DNA of 64,000 nucleotides from Thioalkalivibrio sp. ALJ21 (GTDB lineage: Bacteria > Pseudomonadota > Gammaproteobacteria > Ectothiorhodospirales > Ectothiorhodospiraceae), in assembly GCF_000378605.1 (NCBI RefSeq), contig NZ_KB905157.1, positions 62,001-126,000 on the forward strand, read 5' to 3'. The position numbers and the translations under genes were made by a program. The notes beneath the pieces are model-generated. The model was not told the DNA's origin. It did not search any database and saw only the letters and a program-made list of their open reading frames with translations. Positions 51,933 through 52,263 of this stretch are shown here, piece after piece (the stretch's first letter is position 1; each line of letters begins with the position of its first letter).

Positions 51933-52236
51933 TTAGGGAAACACTGATTAATGTACGCGCTCGCGTTGGTGCCCCAGGTTTTCCGAGACAAGGCGCGGTG
52001 CGCAGCCGGTAGTGGTTCTACCGGCAAGGACCGCAACGCAGGATCGGAGAACATGGGGCACCAACCCCACAAACCATTCAATGCAGGGGCTCGGCCGCCC
52101 GTTTTCGATCAACAACGGGCGCGGGAACGGCGTTGCGGCTCCTTTGTGCAGAATGACTGCACGGCAGTCGCCGCGCCTTGTTCGCACGCAAAAGCGACTC
52201 GAGCGCGAGCGTGTACATTAATCAGTGTTTCCCTAA
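51933..52236. repeat. 304-bp element with 33-bp terminal inverted repeats and nested internal stems
   Basis: The ends (51933-51965 and 52204-52236, TTAGGGAAACACTGATTAAT...) are inverted copies with one mismatch in 33. Inside are at least six further pairings: 51968-51986 with 52044-52062 (17 of 19), 51988-51998 with 52171-52181 (11 of 11), 52031-52039 with 52130-52138 (9 of 9), and hairpins 52005-52025, 52097-52120 and 52146-52162. No gene fits. A TA dinucleotide lies at each junction if GGGAAAC is taken as the true end, as in many small transposable elements. A 15-base end fragment is at 31519. Confidence 0.8.
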
Positions 52237-52237
52237 C

Positions 52238-52263
52238 CTTGAAGCGACGGGCATTGCCCCCAT
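52238..52263 (+). promoter_or_regulatory. Sigma-32 (RpoH) type promoter of clpB
   Basis: CTTGAAG at 52238-52244 and CCCCAT at 52258-52263 are separated by 13 bases, close to the heat-shock consensus (CTTGAAA, 13-15 bases, CCCCAT). Transcription would start near 52271, about 35 bases before the clpB ATG. The -35 box begins one base after the structured element ends. Confidence 0.7.

Follow-up and report, generated by a model that had tools for sequence, protein, structure and literature searches.

A MITE is usually classed by the transposon with which it shares its ends, and is seen as a leftover of internal deletion. Integron attC sites are imperfect hairpins that can be read as folded single-stranded DNA of one polarity. 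Among other dispersed bacterial repeats, the movement of RUP has been inferred to occur in trans (PMC2229807), and REP/REPIN sequences have been reported in Thioalkalivibrio (PMC3733652). Here we describe a 304-bp element directly ahead of clpB in the window, that is, the whole 64,000-nucleotide stretch of Thioalkalivibrio sp. ALJ21 DNA that was analysed. We put the probability of its anatomy, mobilisation and conserved core, taken together as presented below, at roughly 0.7.

The two arms of the element (51933-51965 and 52204-52236) are 33 nt long and 97% complementary, in agreement with the near-perfect 33-bp terminal inverted repeats claimed in a sequence-only reading of the same DNA, and the inverted-repeat listing of the region places five more inverted pairs inside the 304 bp. 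When folded as RNA, the plus strand reached -185.3 kcal/mol (z -15.2) and the minus strand -176.8 kcal/mol (z -11.4), with 0 of 100 shuffles as good for either, and the DNA fold gave a z of -14.0. The internal stems proposed earlier are borne out by these further inverted pairs and by folds 11-15 SD better than those of the shuffles. A distant pairing proposed between 51988-51998 and 52171-52181 did not stand: these segments mostly form no helix, and are instead one conserved box (CAAGGCGC) found in inverted orientation in two homologous hairpins. The exact boundaries are GGGAAAC...GTTTCCC (51936-52233), with TA on either flank. The open reading frames overlapping the element are mechanical only and a transposase gene is absent inside; its interior is kept as a hairpin, not as a protein. 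The features are collected in Table 1.

Table 1. Features of the clpB-site element and its right flank, in window positions; R1 is a covariance model built on the left hairpin.
Feature	Position	Strand	Basis
Left target-site remnant TTAG (TA at 51934-51935)	51933..51936	.	Filled/empty-site alignment
Left terminal inverted repeat, type A (GGGAAACACTGATTAATGTAC...)	51936..51965	+	Type is that of one end of the sister-genome IS5
Left hairpin, 102 nt, conserved core module	51964..52065	+	R1 match 119.7 bits; 43 genera
Box CAAGGCGC, left hairpin, conserved	51989..51996	+	1.8-2 bits/column in most columns, 133 hairpins
Apical stem-loop GCCGGTAG-TGGTT-CTACCGGC	52005..52025	+	Inverted pair I6; covaries
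Box GCAACGC, left hairpin, conserved	52033..52039	+	Column conservation, 133 hairpins
Spacer with optional 14-16-nt module (CACAAACCATTCAATGC)	52066..52095	+	Present or absent among copies and orthologues
Optional hairpin module (CGCCCGTTTTCGATCAACAACGGGCG)	52096..52121	+	Inverted pair I4; TTTT instead in other copies/orthologues
Right hairpin, inverted diverged copy of left-hairpin module	52119..52190	-	R1 25.2 bits, E 9e-4
Box GCAACGC, right hairpin (GCGTTGC on +)	52130..52136	-	Sequence
Box CAAGGCGC, right hairpin (GCGCCTTG on +)	52173..52180	-	Sequence
Right terminal inverted repeat	52204..52233	-	Inverted-repeat listing
Right target-site copy CTAA (TA at 52234-52235)	52233..52236	.	Filled/empty-site alignment
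Sigma32-like clpB promoter CTTGAA N14 CCCCAT, outside element	52238..52263	+	Sequence, sister-genome conservation

In sister genomes the clpB site is either empty or filled. The site reads GGCGTCTAACCTTGAA in G020 and GGCGTTTAG-element-CTAACCTTGAA in the window, from which it follows that the original site was CTAA and that the insert lies between two TAs. The site is also empty in G025, and G004 carries the same insertion as the window. TA is present on both sides of this insert, and a full 4-bp duplication is clear in some copies only, one of them (L002) reading CTAA/CTAA; the insertion sites of the family are TA-centred (CTAG, TTAA, CTAA). The element ends at 52236, and after a single base the sequence CTTGAA N14 CCCCAT starts at 52238 (CCCCAT at 52258-52263). 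We take this sequence upstream of clpB to be a sigma32-type promoter; it is conserved in the aligned sister genomes and, because the element ends before it starts, the element is outside the clpB mRNA made from it. A riboswitch or thermosensor leader of clpB, which the position just ahead of the gene could suggest, has next to no probability and is refuted for transcripts made from this conserved sigma32-like promoter, since the element is upstream of it, sister genomes without the element at the site still have clpB, and the same family occupies about 50 other loci. In addition, independent elements of type B were seen in the intergenic region upstream of clpB in G022 and G026 (L095, L097), indicating that this region has been hit more than once.

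The element belongs to a large family. A DNA search of the host genome (G000) found 40 places at 78-100% identity, a search with the end sequences found 93 sites, mostly as facing pairs, and at least 48 copies are full-length, in addition to fragments, all of these numbers being minima. The presence or absence of three modules, each about 15 nt long, places copy lengths near 271, 286, 301 and 316. The family was found in 17 of the 58 relatives searched, 16 of them in the same genus (29 genomes of the genus were sampled); outside the genus there was a single weak whole-element match elsewhere in the class, and the seven genomes sampled from other genera of the taxonomic family all lacked the element in the same search. 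The sequence-only reading had proposed looking for the element and for empty sites in related genomes, and both turned up, as copies in 16 other genomes of the genus and as the empty clpB site of G020 and G025. The plasmid and phage collections searched for the element gave no match, and the viral contigs gave one match to the core pattern. Two reduced forms were also seen in the host: a bare palindrome, AAGGGAAACACTGATCAGTGTTTCCCT, at L058:1497-1524 (G000:C1 ~761,648), in which the two ends are joined without an interior and which is perhaps a deletion or excision scar, and a short version of about 130 bp at L050:1500-1631 (G000:C2 ~25,490), with both ends and a truncated interior.

No PF01609 (DDE_Tnp_1), PF13358 (DDE_3) or IS5 protein match was found in the host genome, so that the clpB-site copy can probably not move in this genome. 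An IS5-family element roughly 1.2 kb long occurs in sister genomes (NCBIfam IS5_4, 269.9 bits, cutoff 140), and its transposase lies between matching ends in G012, G029 (three times), G022 and G010, and beside one matching end in G021. The ends of this element are TAGGGAAACGCTGATCAATG and TAGGG(A/G)(A/G)AC(A/G)CTGATTTA(A/T)T. Each MITE copy has the same type of end on both sides, either GGGAAACACTGATCAATG or GGGAGACGCTGATTTAATC, and these two types correspond to the two dissimilar ends of the IS5 element. Judged from its sequence, the clpB-site element is a MITE, probably of the IS5-mobilised kind, which is a known kind, and the non-autonomous transposable element proposed earlier is supported by its many copies, by the empty site and by a relative in which a transposase lies between the same ends. 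Mobilisation by IS630 rather than IS5 was also considered because IS630 copies lie directly against elements at CTAG sites in G029, G012 and G026; it is very improbable, as the IS630 terminal inverted repeats (TAGTGTC-TTTAACAAAAGTTCG) are unlike those of the element (GGGAAACACTGATYAATG ends), CTAG at element edges is merely a common target, and the IS5 ends are those that match.

At L079, L073, L083 and L075 (G029, G026, G012), IS630 is inserted exactly at the CTAG edge of MITEs, and one IS5 copy in G029 (L122) sits likewise at a MITE edge. MITE edges serve as landing sites, and new ends may be captured in that way. A 2.2-kb unit bounded by terminal inverted repeats (L323) was rejected as an autonomous element: it holds an open reading frame that we read as desaturase-like and no evident transposase, and is probably two separate MITE ends.

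The left hairpin has a far wider distribution than the whole element. In the class, R1 matched 54 of 370 genomes, belonging to 43 of 272 genera, usually along all 102 positions and often in many copies, with E values down to 1e-16 outside the genus. Seventeen outside-genus loci were fetched and read, and 14 of them are MITE-like units with quite different ends. At L226, L235 and L236 the position displayed looked coding or unrelated; these loci start at a contig end, and the display was displaced for L226, which does hold a true core, and may be for the other two. A strict sequence pattern matched at least 120 stretches, in Halomonas, Stutzerimonas, other Pseudomonas, Nitrosomonas, Thiobacillus, Sideroxydans, Sedimenticola, Colwellia and others. 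A looser pattern matched 15 of 397 genomes across the phylum, several with 5-25 copies, against three single matches for the reversed control, though those in G761 are perhaps coding. Typically, a unit is about 270 bp long and consists of an end, the hairpin, a short spacer, the same hairpin inverted and an end, and the right half of the element in the window is such a second, diverged hairpin; members with one hairpin only were found at L221, L224 and L303. As far as these matches tell, the core module is older and more widespread than the clpB-site element. In G213, G061, G097 and other drafts, many core matches lie no more than about 120 bases from the end of a contig, and the repeats therefore appear to break assemblies.

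For three further end types, a complete insertion sequence whose ends match was found. The first is an IS630 of 1097 bp with ends TTATTAACCCGGCAA (L388), whose host genome (G379) also has core units with similar ends (L223). The second is an IS5_4 element with ends TTAGGGAACCTCTGATTAATTCGG (L359), with a core unit (L234) in the same genome. The third is a two-ORF element of the IS5_3 type with ends TAGGGCGTGTTAACACTAA (L360), the two halves of its transposase each scoring just below the NCBIfam cutoff, and its ends match a core unit (L288) of another organism. The IS630 and IS5 matches together indicate that one core travels with the ends of two unrelated transposase families.

Within the genus, the ends vary among copies yet agree within a copy. 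The genus alignment (135 distinct rows) has 45 pairs that are predicted alike from both strands, 25 of them with more than one Watson-Crick state. At these strand-neutral pairs the departures were 88 A.C cells and 86 G.U cells; pairs chosen by folding one strand are biased for such a strand test, and the plus/minus counts were left unused. Equal G.U and A.C points to the DNA level, because an RNA strand under selection would be expected to retain G.U rather than A.C, and the covariation of the long outer stems and terminal inverted repeats looks DNA-level. This symmetry, together with the terminal inverted repeats, the target sites and the IS5 partner, is also what an ordinary IS5-derived MITE would show, in which meaningless filler lies between the ends and all internal pairing arises incidentally as palindromes are homogenised. 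We consider this improbable: the interior has invariant boxes in 43 genera and lies between the ends of other IS families, as filler would not. The sequence-only reading had reasoned that a transposase-bearing relative with the same ends and no covariation of the internal stems would make this an ordinary MITE; such a relative was found, and the stems covary. Its claim that the internal pairings go beyond a plain MITE is upheld by a core that is conserved across genera and covaries.

For the core, 133 hairpins (127 distinct) were aligned (A2); the alignment was fitted to R1 and so leans towards the R1 structure. In it, 92.7% of cells are paired, compared with 57.4% when shuffled and 36-40% when slid, and covariation is 0.785 (0.176 shuffled), with change on both sides in 36 of 37 pairs. 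The boxes CAAGGCGC and GCAACGC form mismatched internal loops that are nearly invariant in the 133 hairpins, partly by selection, as most loci were fetched with a box-containing pattern; the loci found with R1, fetched without this pattern, carry the same boxes. Between clusters (80% identity), G.U and A.C departures are about equal in the far outer stem (19:20), but G.U greatly outnumbers A.C near the boxes (60:3) and in the inner (22:3) and apical (32:5) stems. Furthermore, the G.U excess near the boxes holds in left and right hairpins separately, each in its own sense, and these are on opposite strands.

A folded RNA, which the sequence-only reading had allowed for, finds part of its support here. 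Such a structured RNA would be carried on MITEs whose plus strand is transcribed with the neighbouring genes, the transcript acting as an mRNA stabiliser, processing site or attenuator. G.U exceeds A.C near the boxes, and the element strand tends to be that of tandem flanking genes, at 17:4 for the host copies and 16:3 for those of other genomes with orthologues left out, or 33 agreeing and 7 disagreeing over the two independent sets, genes being called by codon usage rather than annotation. This co-orientation counts against a purely DNA-level role, which would not predict it, and could come from transcription or from replication direction. However, the right hairpin has the same polarity on the opposite strand, the long stems have no strand bias, the copy at clpB is outside the transcript from clpB's own promoter, and Rfam gives no match. 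In a single transcript one hairpin would be sense and the other antisense, whereas in two inverted DNA sites both are in sense; as the wobble polarities of the hairpins are on opposite strands, folded DNA is preferred over RNA. We regard the structured RNA as unlikely, and a folded single-strand DNA site as fitting the sequences better, which is an argument and not proof. The stems covary, as they also would in a DNA hairpin; the wobble signature is symmetric in the long stems and, near the boxes, polar in opposite directions in the two hairpins.

Alignment of 13 orthologous pairs showed ends that are mostly retained and interior alleles that are exchanged whole, with TTTT for a 22-nt hairpin, or CCGG...CCGG for CGGG...CCCG. 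These swaps suggest, at the level of aligned alleles, frequent exchange between copies. Modules of about 15 nt differ between species at the same site in L003/L182, L025/L143, L049/L180 and other orthologues. Changes in the terminal inverted repeats of orthologue pairs are mostly one-sided, indicating that the arms are not corrected rapidly. Template switching is a published route to uniform arms and paired changes (PMC8794818, PMC8604942); an inverted apical loop, another of its possible products, was seen in 0 of 48 host copies.

According to the mechanism that we propose, IS5 transposase acting in trans would cut and paste the element, copies would exchange interior modules by gene conversion, and the arms would be kept complementary through hairpin-templated copying (template switching) in replication. 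The inverted hairpins with CAAGGCGC and GCAACGC would be putative recognition sites, read as folded single-stranded DNA by a host or transposition factor. This is the weakest step, and taken alone we hold it at a little under even odds; it would explain why the hairpins are kept despite freely drifting stems and how they can be carried between ends from different transposon families. An end newly acquired on one side could be template-switched to the other. More broadly, and as a tentative proposal short of even odds, this would be a widespread proteobacterial mobile module, defined by its core rather than its ends, in which an inverted pair of polarity-bearing hairpins, read as folded single-stranded DNA or RNA and kept up across great sequence divergence, repeatedly gains ends from unrelated transposon families (IS5, IS630) and so behaves as a hyper-parasite of insertion sequences.

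Across dozens of genera, one core, conserved in its boxes and its covarying structure, occurs with ends from no fewer than two unrelated transposase families. If this holds, selection acts on the core as its unit and the ends can be exchanged, and the cell or the transposition reaction must contain something that recognises the core. In addition, strong covariation, usually taken to prove an RNA, is seen here in stems that include transposon ends and have no RNA-strand signature, and covariation alone would have misfiled the element as a noncoding RNA.

A structured, end-swapping core common to several families is apparently undescribed. No Rfam family scored above gathering for the window, the element or 14 relatives in other genera, and no description was found in the open-access literature on Thioalkalivibrio repeats, IS5 MITEs and shared-core MITEs, although one may exist elsewhere, or of this element in that on Stutzerimonas, Halomonas and Nitrosomonas MITEs. 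The Thiomargarita MITEs (PMC4853749) were rejected as the same element, a different origin being described for them. The attC sites are hairpins that could work alike; the element here lacks the GTTRRRY core, is not arrayed, is flanked by transposon ends and is not a member. REP/REPIN sequences with RAYT transposases are alike in being inverted dispersed hairpins, but REPs are 20-40 bp long and tagged with GTAG/CGTC, whereas the element here has the terminal inverted repeats and target sites of DDE transposons; membership was rejected, as no 20-40 bp stem carries a GTAG/CGTC tag at its foot and the GTAG that does occur is part of the apical stem. The CIR repeats of Caulobacter and relatives (PMC2229807) share two long inverted repeats, a linker and conservation between species, but are about 110 bp long, carry a GANTC motif and belong to alphaproteobacteria, and no CAAGGCGC/GCAACGC boxes are described for them. 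The IS630-linked MITEs of the RUP (pneumococcus) and Correia types are alike in their TA target, palindromic form, about 100 copies and movement inferred in trans, but differ in sequence, and no core common to other families is reported for them in PMC2229807. Lastly, IS5-family MITEs are alike in having no gene, terminal inverted repeats in common with an IS5-family element, a TA-centred target and multiple copies; the difference is that the interior here is a folded module common to MITEs of other genera and other IS families.
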